Below are positions 2,504 to 56,306 of a stretch of DNA of 64,000 nt, piece after piece. The notes below the pieces were generated by a model that was given only the letters and a program-made list of their open reading frames with translations, ran no database searches and was not told the DNA's origin. Position numbers and translations under genes: made by a program. The DNA lies in contig NZ_JACYOT010000009.1 in assembly GCF_014858005.1 (NCBI RefSeq), positions 62,001-126,000 of the forward strand, read 5' to 3'. Source of the DNA: Propioniciclava soli. GTDB taxonomy: Bacteria; Actinomycetota; Actinomycetes; Propionibacteriales; Propionibacteriaceae. Numbering within the stretch: the first letter of the stretch is position 1; the number at the start of each line of letters is the position of its first letter.

Positions 2504-3487
2504 TCAGGCGGCGCGGGAGGCGCGGCCGGTGGTGCCGGTGAGGTGATCGGTGAGCTTGCCCGCCACGTGGGCGGCGATGGCGGCCTGGGACTCCTCGGTT
2601 GATCCGCCGATGTGCGGGGTGAGGATGACGTTCGGCAGGCCCTGCAGGGCGGAGGCGAAGGCGTCCGAACGGCCCGACGGTTCGTCGGGGAAGACGTCGA
2701 GCGCGGCCCCGGCGAGCTGGCCGGACGCCAGCGCGTCCTGCAGCGCGGGCAGGTCGACGACCGGGCCGCGGCTGAGGTTGACGAGCAGCGCGCCGGGCCG
2801 CATCCGGCCGAGCTCGGCGGCGCCGAGGAGGCCGGCGTTGCCCGCCCGGCCGTCCACGTGGAGGCTGACGATGTCGGATGCCCCGAGCAGTTCGTCGAGC
2901 GTCCGGGTGGGCGTGGCGTGGCCGATCGGCTGGCGGTCGGCCAGGTCGTGGAACAGCACGCGGAGGCCGAGCGCCTCGGCGACGACCGACAGCTGGCTGC
3001 CGACGTTGCCGTAGCCGACGATGCCCAGGGTCCGGCCGCGCACCTCGCGGCTGCCCTCGGCGGTCTTGTGCCAGCGGCCCGCGTGGACCGCCCGGTCGTG
3101 GACGGTGAGGCGGCGGCTGAGGGCCAGCAGGTTCGCCACCGCGAGCTCGACCACGCTGCGCGTGCTGGCGTGGGGGGCGTTGAAGACGGCGATGCCGAGT
3201 TCGTCGGCGGCGGCCAGGTCGATCTGGTTGGTGCCGACACAGAAGGCGCCGACCGCCTCCAGATGTTCGGCGCGCTGCAGGACGCGGCGGGTCAGGCGGG
3301 TGCCGGAGCGGATGCCGAGCACCCGGACGCCGGACAGCGCCCGCGTCAGGGCGACGTCGTTGAGCGCCTCGGCGCGGTGGTGGACGGTCAGGCCGGCGTC
3401 GCGGAGCGGGGGGATGGCGTCGGTGTGGACGTTGTCCAGCAGAAGTGCCTGGCCGGCGGTCCCGGGTCGGGGGGCCGTGTGGGTCAT
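2504..3487 (-). CDS. D-2-hydroxyacid dehydrogenase, phosphoglycerate dehydrogenase-like, lacking an ACT domain
   Basis: A 327-residue NAD-dependent D-isomer hydroxyacid dehydrogenase. GAFCVGTNQIDL near residue 80 is the SerA-type substrate-domain signature, and VGYGNVGS (about 157-164) is the dinucleotide-binding turn. The catalytic triad appears as Arg240 in NLSRGPVVD, Glu269 in DVFPDEP and His292 in TPHIGGST. It resembles phosphoglycerate dehydrogenase, which oxidises 3-phosphoglycerate for serine synthesis. It is shorter than typical actinobacterial SerA (about 530 residues) and lacks the intervening and ACT regulatory domains, so it may be an unregulated or specialised paralogue. It precedes the aminotransferase gene and diverges from the thiamine transporter. 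Confidence 0.86.
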   Translation of the reverse strand: MTHTAPRPGTAGQALLLDNVHTDAIPPLRDAGLTVHHRAEALNDVALTRALSGVRVLGIRSGTRLTRRVLQRAEHLEAVGAFCVGTNQIDLAAADELGIAVFNAPHASTRSVVELAVANLLALSRRLTVHDRAVHAGRWHKTAEGSREVRGRTLGIVGYGNVGSQLSVVAEALGLRVLFHDLADRQPIGHATPTRTLDELLGASDIVSLHVDGRAGNAGLLGAAELGRMRPGALLVNLSRGPVVDLPALQDALASGQLAGAALDVFPDEPSGRSDAFASALQGLPNVILTPHIGGSTEESQAAIAAHVAGKLTDHLTGTTGRASRAA

Positions 3488-3637
3488 GTCAGTTCCTTCG
3501 CGGTGTCGGGCGACCCGTTCGGGGCCGTGGAACCACCGTGTCGGCCGCGTCTGTGGCCCTGCTGTGTGCCGGGGCGGGGGCGCGCTGTGACCCTGCGGGT
3601 GGTCGCGGGGCCACGCACGCTAGGGTGGGGAATGAAG

Positions 3638-3722
3638 ACAGGGGAGCGCCCGCAGGGGCGCTGAGAGTGCGGAGCGCCGCAGACCCTCGCACCTGATCCG
3701 GTTCGCACCGGCGGAGGGAGTC
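3638..3722 (+). promoter_or_regulatory. TPP riboswitch (Thi-box) aptamer
   Basis: The conserved TPP aptamer blocks occur in order: ACAGGGGAGC at 3638, GCTGAGAG at about 3660-3667, then ACCCTCGCACCTGATCCGG at about 3683-3701 and the closing GGAGGGAG at 3713-3720. Thiamine pyrophosphate binding to this class represses thiamine uptake or synthesis genes. The location, directly upstream of thiBPQ with no other gene between, agrees. The aptamer is read from diagnostic sequence; I did not run a covariance model. Confidence 0.93.
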
Positions 3723-3750
3723 GAGCTCTTCGGCCCACGGCGGGCCGACC

Positions 3751-3768
3751 CCTCCTACGAACGGGAGG
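3751..3768 (+). promoter_or_regulatory. thiB: Putative expression platform: hairpin masking the thiB Shine-Dalgarno
   Basis: CCTCC at 3751-3755 can pair with GGAGG at 3764-3768 across an eight-base loop. GGAGG is the ribosome-binding site of thiB, whose ATG begins 8 bases later. CCTCC could instead pair with the GGAGGGAG closing strand of the aptamer. This suggests ligand-dependent masking of translation initiation rather than transcription termination. A second hairpin (3731-3747) lies between aptamer and platform. Confidence 0.55.
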
Positions 3769-3776
3769 ACCATCGC

Positions 3777-4913
3777 ATGACCGATCGCCAGCACCCCGGA
3801 CGCCCCACCTCGCCCGGCTGGGGCCGCCGGACCGCGATGCTTCTGGTGCCGGGCCTGCTCGCGCTGGCGGCTTGTACCGGCCCGGCGGCCACCCCGACGC
3901 CGGCGGCGTCCGACACGGCCCCGACGCCCACCACGTCGCCGACGCCCACCGCGTCCGAGTCGACCACCCTGACCGTCGTGACGCACGACTCCTTCGCGTT
4001 GAGCCAGGAGCTGCTGGACGAGTTCGCGGCGCAGACCGGCTACACCGTCACCTACGTCGCGCCCGGGGACGCCGGCAGCCTGACCAACCAGCTGGTGCTG
4101 ACGAAGGACTCCCCGCTCGGTGATGTGGTGTTCGGCATCGACAACACGTTCGCCGGGCGGGCGCTGGACGAGGACGTCGTCGTGCCCTACGTCGCCGAGG
4201 CCCTGCCGGAGCAGGAGGCGGCGACGTTCGCCGCGGACGACACCCATCGGTTGACGCCGATCGACTTCGGGGACGTGTGCATCAATGCCGACCTTGCCTG
4301 GTTCGCCGAGCACGAGCTGGGGGTGCCGACGACGTTGGAGGACCTCGCCGATCCTGCCTACCGGGATCTGCTCGTGGTGTCCAGCCCCGCCACCAGCTCG
4401 CCGGGTCTGGCGTTCCTCATCGCCACCGTGGAGGCGCAGGGGGAGGACGGTTACCTCGACTACTGGCAGCGGCTCCGCGACAACGGCCTGCTCGTCGCGC
4501 AGGACTGGACGGAGGCCTACACGGTGCAGTTCTCCGGCTCGTCGGGGCAGGGGCCGCGGCCGCTCGTGCTGAGCTACGCCACGTCGCCGTCGTTCGAGGT
4601 GGTGGACGGCGCGACCCACACCGGGGCGCTGCTCGGCACGTGCTTCCGGCAGGTGGAGTACGCCGGCGTGATCGCGGGGGCGCAGAACGAGGTCGGGGCG
4701 CAGAAGTTCATCGAGTTCCTGCTCAGCGACGCGGTGCAGGCCGACATCCCCGAGCAGATGTACATGTACCCCGTGCAGCGCTCGGTGGAGCTGCCGGCGG
4801 AGTGGGTCGAGTTCGCGCCGCTGGCGCAGCGGCCCTACACGATGACCCCCGAGGCCATCACCGAGGGGCGCGACACGTGGATCCGTGACTGGGCGACGAC
4901 GGTCATCGGCTGA
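3777..4913 (+). CDS. thiB: Thiamine ABC transporter, substrate-binding lipoprotein
   Basis: A 378-residue exported binding protein. A basic start is followed by a hydrophobic segment ending in the lipobox LALAAC (lipidated Cys33), then a Thr/Pro/Ser-rich linker to about residue 60. The mature part begins LTVVTHDSFALSQELLDEFA, which resembles ThiB of the iron/thiamine/spermidine binding family. It should capture thiamine or its phosphates outside the membrane and hand it to ThiP/ThiQ. ATG at 3777 has GGGAGGA seven bases upstream. It is the first gene of thiBPQ and lies directly under the TPP riboswitch, which strongly supports thiamine over iron or polyamines. Confidence 0.92.
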   Translation: MTDRQHPGRPTSPGWGRRTAMLLVPGLLALAACTGPAATPTPAASDTAPTPTTSPTPTASESTTLTVVTHDSFALSQELLDEFAAQTGYTVTYVAPGDAGSLTNQLVLTKDSPLGDVVFGIDNTFAGRALDEDVVVPYVAEALPEQEAATFAADDTHRLTPIDFGDVCINADLAWFAEHELGVPTTLEDLADPAYRDLLVVSSPATSSPGLAFLIATVEAQGEDGYLDYWQRLRDNGLLVAQDWTEAYTVQFSGSSGQGPRPLVLSYATSPSFEVVDGATHTGALLGTCFRQVEYAGVIAGAQNEVGAQKFIEFLLSDAVQADIPEQMYMYPVQRSVELPAEWVEFAPLAQRPYTMTPEAITEGRDTWIRDWATTVIG

Positions 4914-7661: not shown

Positions 7662-7711
7662 ATTTGGACCCGAGGAAATGGCGCCATGGCGCCATTCCCT
7701 CGGGTCCAAAT
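7662..7711. repeat. 50-bp near-perfect palindrome downstream of thiQ (terminator-like)
   Basis: Two 24-base arms separated by AT. The left arm begins ATTTGGACCCGAGG and the right arm is its reverse complement with a single mismatch (23 of 24). The symmetric centre is rich in GGCGCC/ATGGCGCCAT. It begins 16 bases after the thiQ stop and has no T-run behind it. It probably folds in RNA and ends or protects the thiBPQ transcript, but a protein-bound palindrome is equally possible. The rest of the gap to 7908 shows no other gene or clear element. Confidence 0.85.
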
Positions 7712-12072: not shown

Positions 12073-12149
<77 letters not shown>

Positions 12150-33598: not shown

Positions 33599-33666
33599 CG
33601 ACACGCCTGCTTCGGTCTCAAACTCCGCCTTGCAAGGCGGAGTTTGAGACCGAAGTGAGCGTGTCG
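33599..33666. repeat. 68-bp palindromic repeat, copy 1
   Basis: Arms of 34 bases: CGACACGC... with core TCTCAAACTCCGCCTTG, then its complement CAAGGCGGAGTTTGAGA. Three mismatches lie at arm positions 9-11; the rest pairs. It lies 74 bp downstream of the second protease gene and before the first. Copies 2-4 are at 37746, 39031 and about 55608. The remaining 70 bp to the next gene contain GGCGCC-rich short inverted repeats. Confidence 0.9.
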
Positions 33667-37745: not shown

Positions 37746-37813
37746 CGACACGCTCACTTCGGTCTCAAACTCCGCCTTGGGAGGCGGAGTTTGAGACCAC
37801 ATCGAGCGTGTCG
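37746..37813. repeat. 68-bp palindromic repeat, copy 2
   Basis: The left arm is CGACACGCTCACTTCGGTCT and then CAAACTCCGCCTT; the right arm returns AGGCGGAGTTTGAGACC and ends GAGCGTGTCG, with a few unpaired bases between. It starts 57 bp after the topA stop and could terminate topA transcription. Its right end lies about 20 bp before the promoter of the VOC gene. Confidence 0.9.
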
Positions 37814-39030: not shown

Positions 39031-39098
39031 CGACACGCTCACTTGGGGCTCAAACTCCGCCTCCGGAGGCGGAGTTTGAGCCCCAAGTGAGCGTGTCG
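39031..39098. repeat. 68-bp perfect palindrome, copy 3
   Basis: All 34 arm positions pair. Relative to copies 1 and 2 the segment ACTTCGGTCTC is changed to ACTTGGGGCTC, and the opposite arm carries the matching change GAGCCCCAAGT, so pairing is retained. On the minus strand the repeat encodes the last residues and stop of the NUDIX gene. Confidence 0.93.
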
Positions 39099-39624: not shown

Positions 39625-39813
39625 CGCGTGGCGCACCTCGACGCCACCTGGCGCACCTCCACCCCACCTGGCGCACCGGCCACCCACGTGGCGCACCGGC
39701 CGCCCACGTGGCGCAGTGGAGCTCACCTGGCGGCCCGTGCAAGGCCCTCCACGTGAGCTGCACTGCGCCACGTGCGGTTCAGGTACGCCACGTGCACGGC
39801 ACTCCGCCAGGTG
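39625..39813. repeat. Convergent 20-bp-periodic CACGTGGCGCA array, locus A
   Basis: Forward units (CGCGTGGCGCA, CACCTGGCGCA twice, CACGTGGCGCA twice) start at 39625, 39645, 39665, 39685 and 39705, exactly 20 bp apart. A sixth, CACCTGGCGGC at 39724, opens a 36-bp core (39722-39757). Beyond the core the unit runs in reverse, TGCGCCACGTG (39764-39774), TACGCCACGTG (39784-39794) and TCCGCCAGGTG (39803-39813). It lies between the catalase stop and the NUDIX start, and no gene fits. The rest of the gap (39506-39624 and 39814-39975) shows nothing further. Confidence 0.9.
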
Positions 39814-46050: not shown

Positions 46051-46123
46051 GCCACCTTAGCTCAGTTGGTAGAGCGACGCACTCGTAATGCGTAGGTCAG
46101 CAGTTCGAATCTGCTAGGTGGCT
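46051..46123 (+). tRNA. tRNA-Thr (CGT anticodon)
   Basis: GCCACCT pairs with AGGTGGC as acceptor stem. The D-arm is TAGCTCAGTTGGTAGAGC, the anticodon loop CTCGTAA gives CGT, and the T-arm is CAGCAGTTCGAATCTGC. CCA is not encoded, in contrast to the tRNA-Pro gene. The 210 bp downstream hold only a weak 47-codon frame (46130-46273), not called as a gene. Confidence 0.97.
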
Positions 46124-53783: not shown

Positions 53784-54104
53784 ATGACCCAGCAGATTCC
53801 CTTGACCGACTTCATCACCCGCCACGCCGAGGGCGCCGTCGTGGTGGACGTGCGCGAGGCCGACGAGTACGCGCAGGGCCACGTTCCGGGCGCGGTGTTC
53901 GCTCCGATGAGCGACATCACGTCCCACCTGGCCGACCTGCCGCGGGGCCGCGAGGTCTACGTCATTTGCGCCGCTGGCCGCCGCAGCCTCGCGATGGCCG
54001 AACTGATGGAGGCCAACGGCATCCTGGCGATCTCCGTGGACGAGGGCACCCAGGGCTGGGTCGCCGCCGGTCAGCCGGTGGTCACCGAGTCAGACCCGCG
54101 CTGA
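53784..54104 (+). CDS. Single-domain rhodanese
   Basis: A 106-residue sulphurtransferase. VVVDVREADEYAQGHVPGAV is the CH2A motif; the active loop ICAAGRRSLA contains Cys62 as persulphide carrier. Its last 34 bp overlap the convergent metallophosphoesterase gene. CAGGAT six bases before the ATG is a possible leaderless -10. The sulphur acceptor is not indicated by neighbours. Confidence 0.9.
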   Translation: MTQQIPLTDFITRHAEGAVVVDVREADEYAQGHVPGAVFAPMSDITSHLADLPRGREVYVICAAGRRSLAMAELMEANGILAISVDEGTQGWVAAGQPVVTESDPR

Positions 54105-55081
54105 ACCCCGGCGCCTGCGAGTCGCGCGCGGGCGTCCGCGCTGCTGATGGAGGGGTGGACGCCCTCGCCGCGGGCCAGGGGCACGGCCGTGACGACGAAG
54201 GAATCCTCGAACAGCTCGACCAGGGAGAAGCCGGTGTTGGCGTCCTGGCCGCGCAGGTCGGGGCTGAGGCCGACCTCCTGGGTGTAGGTCAGCGAGGACG
54301 CCATGGCCACCGGGACGCCCGCCACCGTGCCGAACCCCGTCTGGTGGAAGTGGCCCGAGAGGATCAGGCGGGTGTCGGTGCCGCGCACGACCTCGGCGAG
54401 GGCACCGGGGTTGCGGAGCGGCCACAGTTCAGTGGCGTCCTGGGGCTGGGGGAGCGGGCAGTGGTGGACGACGAGAACGGTGCCAGCCTCAGCGGGGTGC
54501 TCGAGCCGGGCCGAGAGCCAACTGAGGGCCTCATCGCTGAGCTGACCCGCCGGCGTCCCGGGGACGTTGGAGTCCACCGTCAGCACGCGCAGCCCGCGGA
54601 GGTCGTGCTCGCCCAGGATGAGACCTGAAGGTCCCACGCCGTCGCCGATCCCGAGGCCGGCCCGGAAGGCCGCGCGTTCGTCGTGGTTGCCGTTGCCCCA
54701 GATCACGCGGACGCCTGCCGTCGCCGCTGCGGCGCCGACCTGTTCGGCCAAGAAGGCGTAGGACGCCGGCGAGCCGTCGTCGGAGAGATCCCCGGAGAAC
54801 ACCCATGCGTCGCAGCGCACACCCCAGGTGGTGAGTACGTCCAGGGCGGCGGTGAGACGGGCTCGGGCGTCCACCACGCCGTCGATGCGGGAGCCGTCGC
54901 CGGTGAGGTGAAGGTCGGACAGGTGCGCCAGCACGTGGCGGGGCCGCGGCCGGGAGAGCGGGGGTTGGGGAGTCGCTGCGGACGCGGTGCTATCGGTGGA
55001 CGCGGTGGTGGCGGGCGCCGGGCCCCGCGGGCTCGATGGTGTTGCGCCGGTGGCGGAAGGATCCAGGGGTGGTGGGGTCAT
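54071..55081 (-). CDS. Metallophosphoesterase (CpdA/Icc-like)
   Basis: A 336-residue phosphoesterase. After a Pro/Ser/Thr-rich N-terminal 45 residues come HLSDLHL, FSGDLSDDG, IWGNGNHDERAAF, VVHHCPLP and LSGHFHQTGFG, the complete metal-ligand set of the cyclic-nucleotide phosphodiesterase type. It probably hydrolyses cAMP or another phosphodiester; cyclic-nucleotide genes are not visible here. The ATG has AGGAGGACACG upstream. The 600-bp gap before it holds repeat array B. Confidence 0.86.
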   Translation of the reverse strand: MTPPPLDPSATGATPSSPRGPAPATTASTDSTASAATPQPPLSRPRPRHVLAHLSDLHLTGDGSRIDGVVDARARLTAALDVLTTWGVRCDAWVFSGDLSDDGSPASYAFLAEQVGAAAATAGVRVIWGNGNHDERAAFRAGLGIGDGVGPSGLILGEHDLRGLRVLTVDSNVPGTPAGQLSDEALSWLSARLEHPAEAGTVLVVHHCPLPQPQDATELWPLRNPGALAEVVRGTDTRLILSGHFHQTGFGTVAGVPVAMASSLTYTQEVGLSPDLRGQDANTGFSLVELFEDSFVVTAVPLARGEGVHPSISSADARARLAGAGVQRGSDSVTTG

Positions 55082-55324
55082 CGTGTCCTCCTCAGTCACT
55101 GCCTCAGGGTAGGGGCTGGGGCTGACAATCGAGCGCGTCGAGGTGCACCGGACCCAGCCGATCAGGCAGCGACCTCGGGGCGGGCGGGTTTGTCGCACCG
55201 GCGGCGTCCGACAGCGGGGCCCATGCTGCGTTGGCGTCGAAGCCAGGGATGGTGTTCGGGTCCACAACCGGCAAGTCCGGATCCGGTGTGGGTGTCGCGA
55301 TTGCTCTGCCGGGGGTGTCGGCCC

Positions 55325-55552
55325 CACATGGCGCGCCATGCGATCACGTGGCGCGCTCAGTGATCACGTGGCGCAGGGGAACTTACGTGGCGCAGGGGAA
55401 CTCACGAGGCGCAGCGGAACTCACGTGGCGGGCCTTGGACGGGCCTCCAGGTGAGGCCCGCATCGCCATGTGAGGTCGGGGCGCGCCACGTGAGCTCAGG
55501 GTGCGCCACGTGAGGTCGGGGTGCGCCAGGTGCAAGGGGAATGCGCGACGTG
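55325..55552. repeat. Convergent 19-20-bp-periodic CACGTGGCGCA array, locus B
   Basis: Six forward units begin at 55325, 55345, 55365, 55384, 55403 and 55422 (CACGTGGCGCA with one or two changes each). The last opens a 36-bp core (55420-55455). Six reverse units end at 55453 (in the core), 55472, 55492, 55512, 55532 and 55552. The layout is symmetrical, six against six. The core is the reverse complement of the locus A core with 33 of 36 identities. It lies between ppa and the metallophosphoesterase gene, both minus strand. The remaining gap 55082-55324 shows no gene. Confidence 0.92.
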
Positions 55553-55607
55553 AGACGAGCTGAGCTGATCGAGATCAGGCTGACTCCGGAGGAACCGACG
55601 GCCCTGC

Positions 55608-55676
55608 TCACACTCCGGTTCCTGCCTCAAACTCCGGCTCCAAACCTGGAGTTTGAGACCCAAGCGTGCGTGTCGC
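55608..55676. repeat. 68-bp-class palindromic repeat, copy 4 (degenerate left arm)
   Basis: CTCAAACTCCGGCTCC and CCTGGAGTTTGAG form the inner stem, and the right arm continues ACCCAAGCGTGCGTGTCG as in copies 1-3. The left outer arm (GCTCACACTCCGGTTCCTGC) no longer pairs well. It begins 22 bp downstream of the ppa stop and 55 bp from array B. Confidence 0.75.
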
Positions 55677-55697
55677 GGCCCCACCGGGGGCCGGTGC

Positions 55698-56306
55698 TCA
55701 GCCCTCCGCGGGCTTCTCGTCGTGGAGGCCGCCGATGGTGTCGCGGGCGTCGCCGCCCTGGGGCGGGGTGAACTCGTTCTCGAAGTCGGTGCCGCGGGCG
55801 CGATCCCAGCTGGCGCGGATCTCGTTCTCCGCGTCCTCGCGGGCGACCCAGACGGCTCCCTCGACGGACTTGCCGGGCTCGAGATCCTTGTACACCGAGA
55901 AGAAGTGCTCGATCTCCAGCAGCGCGAGGTCGGCGAGGTCGGTGAGGTTGCGCAGGCCCTGCTGACGGATGTCGGCGATCGGCACGCACAGCACCTTGTC
56001 GTCACCGCCCATCTCGTCCTGCATCCGGAACATGCCGATGGCGCGGCACTCGATGAGCGCCCCGGGGAACGTCGCCTCGGGCAGCAGCACCATCGCGTCG
56101 AGCGGGTCGCCGTCCTGCCCGAGGGTGCCCTCGATGAAGCCGTAGTCGTTCGGGTACTGCGTGGAGGTGAACAGCGTGCGATCGAGGCGGATCCGGCCGT
56201 TGTGGTGATCCATCTCGTACTTGTTCTTGGTGCCCTTGGGGATCTCGACGGTCACGTCGAAGCGGAGTTCAGGCTTCATCTTGGGACGTTCGAACGCGTG
56301 ACGCAT
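55698..56306 (-). CDS. ppa: Inorganic pyrophosphatase (family I)
   Basis: A 202-residue soluble pyrophosphatase. Motifs: EIPKGTKNKYEMD, YPNDYGFIEGTLG and the signature DGDPLDAMVL (65-74) with the three Mg-binding aspartates. It removes pyrophosphate from biosynthesis. A nine-residue N-terminal extension and a C-terminal acidic tail of about 25 residues make it longer than typical 160-170-residue family members. An internal ATG (56279) would give the short form, but the AAGGAA Shine-Dalgarno favours 56306. It diverges from dacB. Confidence 0.95.
   Translation of the reverse strand: MRHAFERPKMKPELRFDVTVEIPKGTKNKYEMDHHNGRIRLDRTLFTSTQYPNDYGFIEGTLGQDGDPLDAMVLLPEATFPGALIECRAIGMFRMQDEMGGDDKVLCVPIADIRQQGLRNLTDLADLALLEIEHFFSVYKDLEPGKSVEGAVWVAREDAENEIRASWDRARGTDFENEFTPPQGGDARDTIGGLHDEKPAEG

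Follow-up and report, generated by a model that had tools for sequence, protein, structure and literature searches.

The bacterial repeats closest to the arrays described here are the REP, BIME and REPIN elements, which are likewise short, dispersed and intergenic, in some cases species-specific, and present as several types per genome with partners in opposite orientation (PMC3733652, PMC8266576). REP-type repeats are described there as palindromes, mostly between unidirectional and convergent ORFs and near 3' ends, and the GTAG class is possibly moved by RAYT transposases (PMC3733652). CGTC REPs are said to have no cognate RAYT. The arrays share this habitat, in that they lie mostly in tandem and convergent gaps and nearer to the upstream stop codon. 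However, their unit CACGTGGCGCA is a one-directional, non-palindromic 11-bp motif instead of a palindrome of 20-40 bp, and neither GTAG nor CGTC is found by eye in the consensus of 38 aligned cores. The 32-bp array core is itself a palindrome but, unlike in REPs, the pairing of core plus inner units exceeded none of 500 shuffles. A search of the genome for PF01797 (Y1_Tnp, RAYT-type) gave no match, with 5 of 14 control genomes positive, and we rejected a REP moved by a RAYT on this result. With a hairpin unit, a tag and a RAYT all missing, we do not file the arrays as REPs; at most, they may work like a BIME-type mosaic.

The ends of IS21-, Tn7- and Tn402-type transposons carry several inverted, regularly spaced short transposase sites on two sides, a layout that the arrays resemble. 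A transposon has the opposite pattern of conservation, however: in the arrays it is the centre that is kept and the outer ends that are ragged, and no transposase was found among the genes scanned beside 38 of them. Seven loci with rve domains (2-3 kb) contain no phased array, only scattered one-mismatch motifs, and IS21- or Tn7-type ends were rejected on this basis. Partition and nucleoid sites (parS, plasmid parC) consist of a core plus phased iterons. The arrays have the same layout, with CACGTG half-sites in the centre, but occur in more than 40 copies, and none of the sister species searched has their sequence. Judging from titles and the openings of abstracts, the literature searched holds no description of such arrays.

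The window analysed here is a stretch of 64,000 nucleotides (contig C65, positions 62001-126000) of a 3,795,546-bp assembly in 65 contigs, with a G+C content of ~71% (40 samples). It contains two arrays, locus A and locus B, and the features below are given in window coordinates.

55325..55413, forward strand: left arm of locus B, five forward units with motif starts at 55325, 55345, 55365, 55384 and 55403 (spacing 19-20 bp)
55422..55453, no strand: core of locus B, a 32-bp imperfect palindrome CACGTGGCGGGCCTTGGACGGGCCTCCAGGTG with 0 mismatches to the degenerate core consensus
55462..55552, reverse strand: right arm of locus B, five reverse units with motif ends at 55472, 55492, 55512, 55532 and 55552
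39625..39812 (outer ends approximate), no strand: locus A, the window's other array of this family, core at 39724-39755
55628..55655, no strand: palindromic stem CAAACTCCGGCTCCAAACCTGGAGTTTG beside locus B, member of a different dispersed family
55698..56279, reverse strand: inorganic pyrophosphatase (ppa; Pfam Pyrophosphatase), right flank of locus B, start uncertain
54071..54934, reverse strand: metallophosphoesterase (Pfam Metallophos), left flank of locus B, start uncertain

The gap that holds locus B is thus bounded by two co-directional minus-strand genes, ppa (stop at 55698) and the metallophosphoesterase, whose similarity to sister sequences extends to ~54958. Locus A is built in the same way, as a core plus mirror-image unit arms. 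The initial annotation had counted six forward and six reverse units at locus B, which is correct if each core half is taken as one unit. It had also reported that the 36-bp core at 55420-55455 is 33/36 identical to the reverse complement of the locus A core (39722-39757), and the two indeed differ at 3 of 36 positions; read directly, they differ at 7 of 36 (29/36 identical). The imperfect symmetry of the cores was likewise reproduced, with 8 (A) and 10 (B) of 36 positions differing from the core's own reverse complement. Since each core nearly equals its own reverse complement, the relative direction of A and B rests on few (three) positions. Two of these, centre positions 10 and 13, are reversed between the loci in keeping with the opposite orientation that had been claimed, but position 7 is not. 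The cores are oriented only in part, because the three polar positions sometimes disagree: positions 10 and 13 are linked (Fisher p = 0.0005), and position 7 has no clear linkage to either (p = 0.09, 0.21).

This 3.80-Mb genome contains at least 42 arrays of the family to which locus B belongs (family 1), spread over 13 contigs. A DNA search with locus B as the query returned 85 matches, merged by hand into 40 places; 40 of 80 first-look candidates were scored, so that 42 is a lower bound. The 42 comprise 38 arrays whose core is clear, one in which it is split (L043) and three that lack it (L036, L044, L100), the last four being included in the count and left outside the 38-core statistics. 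With up to 3 mismatches, the 32-letter core pattern gave 32 strand matches at 23 places (9 of them counted on both strands, the pattern being nearly palindromic) against 0 for a backward-read control, and the paired-unit pattern gave 204 matches against 15; these controls exclude a chance origin. The two-copy or single-duplication origin that the initial annotation named as the contrary outcome was not found genome-wide, and its proposal of a dispersed, amplified element agrees with a conserved core and attached unit arrays.

A typical array consists of the 32-bp centre with mirror-image units on both sides, phased at 19-20 bp, each unit made up of the 11 conserved bases CACGTGGCGCA and loosely conserved bases, over a median length of 170 bp (range 110-266). 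Within 200 bp of the 38 cores, 272 motif matches point toward the core and 4 away, a count that involves no choice of units by score, although the score matrix was trained on the same arms. In the same count, neighbouring motifs lie 19 or 20 bp apart in 252 of 272 cases (38-core set). Units picked by motif score and within allowed steps, a choice that inflates motif conservation and phasing, carry 1.47-1.56 bits in the motif versus 0.33-0.47 in the spacer at ranks 2-5. When the second unit out from the core is instead taken at a fixed offset, with no selection by motif, the column means are 1.20 bits for motif positions and 0.32 bits for spacer positions. The innermost spacer is better conserved (1.07 bits).

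The lengths of left and right arms are uncorrelated (r = 0.05). Outer spacers are 61% identical within an arm, 37% between loci and 30% as expected from composition, which points to a common founder and local unit duplication. The outer spacers of opposite arms at the same locus give the lowest identity of the comparisons (0.33), below that of permuted pairs (0.330 versus 0.375; the observed value was reached or exceeded in 988 of 1000 permutations). Higher-order units of 39-40 bp also occur within arrays. The founder probably already carried outer units, and its copies spread before the arms grew independently by tandem duplication.

Genes were called with our own codon-usage model, which differs from published gene finders, and on these calls none of the 42 array centres lies inside a gene. 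The array of L025 (3025-3174) is the sole one among 38 measured that an ORF overlaps (3083-4642, reverse strand, 92 bp by its 3' end). Tandem gaps hold 21 arrays, convergent gaps 14 and divergent gaps 6, and one array at a contig edge (L019) has no class. The background is an 800-kb sample of 487 tandem, 98 convergent and 95 divergent pairs (class difference p = 0.002), which is non-random in that it contains 1 of the 42 arrays where ~9 are expected; compared with it, convergent gaps (14 of 41 classified arrays) are over-represented. Arrays in 20 tandem gaps lie a median of 78 bp from the upstream stop and 228 bp from the downstream start (p = 0.002).

No transposase or recombinase family was detected in the 70 genes scanned singly out of the 71 flanking the 38 cored arrays, and 6 of these 70 match no family. 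The scan covers the cored arrays, to the exclusion of the neighbours of L036, L043, L044 and L100 and of the ORF overlapping L025. The remaining gene encodes a catalase. No family has more than 3 members among the 71, as seen from the 25 of 122 families shown, and on these results we rejected a mobile gene or a shared partner beside the arrays. Neither an insertion boundary nor a target duplication was seen at the arrays, whose ends are ragged. One array neighbour, L023:3461-4924 (forward strand), has a weak match to DUF222 (E 6e-6), a domain known from the 13E12 repeat proteins of mycobacteria.

The family 1 letters appear to be confined to this genome among those compared. Unit pairs number 175 here versus 0-3 in each of the 197 further genomes compared from the taxonomic family, which include 12 from the same genus, and a DNA search of 56 relatives with locus A gave marginal single matches only, in 5 of the 56. 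At one orthologous gap, compared in nine of the 12 same-genus genomes with 55698-56174 as the ppa query, the metallophosphoesterase similarity stops ~5-110 bp away from the ppa stop in 8 of the 9 sisters, whereas the distance in this genome is ~740 bp; the exception, G009, showed no metallophosphoesterase next to ppa. The gap at locus B also holds some 400-500 bp of other extra sequence. The mobility suggested by the initial annotation is thus indirectly favoured by the absence from the relatives searched and by the tight interval in eight sisters; no transposase was found beside the arrays scanned. In a collection of genome contigs, from which this genome's own records or those of a very close one were possibly left out, the half-core pattern had one match, in a MAG and without an array, which we read as chance. 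Viral contigs gave 2 and 1 single pattern matches and no arrays, and phage and plasmid records no match to locus B.

Samples of two sister species contain different arrays. Each sample consisted of 20 stretches of 20 kb. In G005, 8 of these contain 20-bp arrays built from GGGGGCGACTCGTC-type units, whose cores include GCCCCCGTTGCAGCGGGGGC and GCCCCCGTTCCTGCGGGGGC; in G001, 2 contain GCCGAGGGCTTGGG units of 22 bp, in one case as two arrays that mirror each other about a CGTTGCAACG centre. The scans of both sisters also list other, unlike repeats. The array loci are L114-L123 and L199-L208 (G005) and L131 and L216 (G001). Whole elements in G005 are tandemly repeated in larger units (L114 71-1137, L205 9146-10105). 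Samples of 80 kb from G008 (same genus), G015, G017 and G029 (other genera) and G034 (another family), small as they are, contained no mirror-image 20-bp array; they did contain one unlike 21-bp repeat (G017) and one 36-bp repeat (G034).

A second family in the genome under study follows the same 20-bp plan, with the unit CAGGGAGGCG + 10 and a core that by eye is approximately CCCCTGCCGTTGCAACGGCAGGGG. Read with the letters CAGGGAGGCG, its units run away from the core, which is often centred on GTTGCAAC. The family 2 pattern has 175 matches versus 2 in the control, an abundance similar to that of family 1, and merging gave at least 35 places among the 100 matches listed. In the comparison across the taxonomic family it has 161 matches here versus 0-2 each in 196 other genomes. 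Examples in the own genome are:

L013 4196-4345: family 2 array
L020 3459-3710: family 2 array
L036 3208-3440: family 2 array
L150 13977-14269: family 2 array
L173 4830-4950: family 2 array

Of 41 family 1 regions, 11 also have family 2 in the gap, versus 5 of 154 gaps of at least 150 bp in the 800-kb sample (p = 2e-5), a value uncorrected for gap length and subject to the non-random sampling described above. Several family 2 arrays sit at contig ends, so the repeats may break assemblies. A TTGCAA centre was seen in family 2, in G001 and in part of G005; it is not claimed as universal to all families because many G005 cores have TTCCTG instead.

We tentatively favour the reading, at a probability of about 45%, that these loci are dispersed, non-autonomous arrays of putative double-stranded protein-binding sites. 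Locus B would then be a single copy of an intergenic repeat element that is specific to the species, dispersed and non-autonomous, with double-stranded DNA as its working form. The polar 32-bp centre would nucleate a putative sequence-specific DNA-binding protein, predicted to be encoded elsewhere in the genome, and the mirror-image arms, with an 11-bp motif every ~two helical turns (19-20 bp), would hold further protein subunits. Some copying mechanism would have carried the element, as a core with some outer units, to at least 42 intergenic gaps, where each arm could have been lengthened or shortened separately through tandem unit duplication. The cell would most likely tolerate it as selfish DNA and may have recruited it as a roadblock or organiser at the ends of genes. 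Several points count against this reading: no binding protein came to light, the 19-20-bp phasing would pass on through tandem duplication even without selection, gene conversion could be an alternative source of motif conservation, and 6 of the 41 classified arrays lie in divergent gaps.

These divergent arrays also weigh against a distinctly unlikely alternative, in which the arrays function as folded RNA or single-stranded DNA, either terminating transcription in both directions or serving as RNA-processing hairpins at the ends of genes. The excess in convergent gaps (p = 0.002 over three classes) and the proximity to stop codons are what such hairpins would predict, and locus B folds very stably (z = -8.2 as RNA, -9.1 as DNA), but these scores weigh little because any inverted repeat folds well. 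Among the 38 aligned cores, left-right pairing was 81.1% versus a shuffle mean of 83.9% (500 of 500 shuffles at or above the observed value), and 498 of 500 shuffles equalled or exceeded the observed covariation score. The true register pairs far better than slid versions (81% versus 29-46%; covariation 0.083 versus 0.027-0.051), since the centre is a palindrome. The deficit falls mostly on centre positions 7, 10 and 13, at which 11, 6 and 6 of 38 cores have matched pairs versus 19.9, 18.9 and 17.0 expected and the common mismatches are A.G/C.T, C.C/G.G and G.A/T.C. The explanation is either polarity of the centre or selection against perfect palindromes; a general ban on palindromes is disfavoured, as perfect ones of 46 and 60 bp are present elsewhere in the window. 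A hairpin role of the centre is weakened by the pairing and the compensatory changes, both below shuffles, and the pair counts together with the opposite-arm test led us to reject, as the main reading, an RNA or DNA hairpin as the selected form. Around locus B (54900-55800) there are 0 intrinsic terminator sites, defined as a GC-rich stem followed by a T run. Rfam has no match at the two arrays of the window, in which it finds only two tRNAs (12076-12149, reverse strand; 46051-46123, forward strand) and a TPP riboswitch (3630-3736).

An unlikely explanation is that the sites serve the host: a protein that structures the nucleoid, insulates or silences would polymerise from the core outward, the arrays would be kept for host benefit, and the different letters per species would stem from rapid co-evolution between the protein and its sites. 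This explanation would suit the mirror-image, phased arms about a single conserved centre, the distribution over 13 contigs and the gaps shared by two families of the same plan, the last with the reservations on gap length and sampling already given. The pattern is, however, absent from the 12 same-genus genomes searched, and the arrays could not be placed in replication order, as GC skew was too weak to order contigs from origin to terminus. With dnaA on contig C3, the actinobacterial-type dif pattern had a single match with one mismatch, C45:40447-40468, and an array at C45:39107-39234 (L042, G000:C45:36100-42300) lies 1.2 kb from this only dif-like site found. By our own estimate such proximity arises by chance in ~3% of cases with 42 arrays, so that chance can give it. 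The segregation or nucleoid-organising site suggested by the initial annotation is left in doubt, as absence of the sequence from the sisters searched is unexpected of a conserved host system. Neutral satellites, which slippage during replication and gene conversion would generate in gaps prone to palindromes without any reader acting in trans, are very unlikely. Homogenisation within arms, the 39-40-bp higher-order units and the large tandem expansions in one sister (54.8 copies at 68% match) are as slippage would produce, but it would not readily give the very unequal conservation of motif and spacer, the one direction kept by 272 motif matches against 4, or a core and outer-unit consensus common to the loci.

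A wider claim, which we consider unlikely, concerns the genus as a whole. It would posit that genome parasites or host organisers form a class found throughout the genus, with a build of mirror-image arrays of putative binding sites, in phase with the helix, around a short polar centre, whose "alphabet" is swapped wholesale between sisters while the plan is kept, driven by co-evolving DNA-binding or copying proteins and with hairpins selected against. From the letters, the arrays look like a family of fast-changing protein-landing sites: abundant and in the habitat of REPs but of another build, with phased one-way motifs in mirror image, hairpin pairing below expectation, no Y1 match and sister species with different letters. 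If a cognate protein exists, they would represent a new repeat-spreading or chromosome-coating system, and the turnover within the genus would allow changes in such a code to be followed as a natural experiment.

Other repeats were observed alongside the arrays. A dispersed near-perfect palindrome TTTGGACCCGAGGAAATGGCGCCATGGCGCCATTTCCTCGGGTCCAAA, sometimes beside an array, occurs at window 7662-7711 and at L009 3165, L035 454 and L041 3202, with weaker copies at L022 6873, L038 859 and L039 4080. Palindromes sharing CAAACTCC...GGAGTTTG lie at window 33610-33655, 37761-37798, 39035-39094 and 55628-55655; their outer stems differ yet still pair, those of 46 and 60 bp are perfect, and by their sequence they look like hairpin terminators or a REP-like family. 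In a genome of another genus (G157, genus g17), three head-to-tail 20-bp units GACCTGGCGCTCTTTCCACC (reverse strand) at L099 ~1527-1587 adjoin a long inverted repeat and are possibly a related array. Sister G001 carries a 54-bp perfect palindrome, CATTTCCGGGTGGCGTGACCCCAAGGATCC..., at L133 6600-6653.
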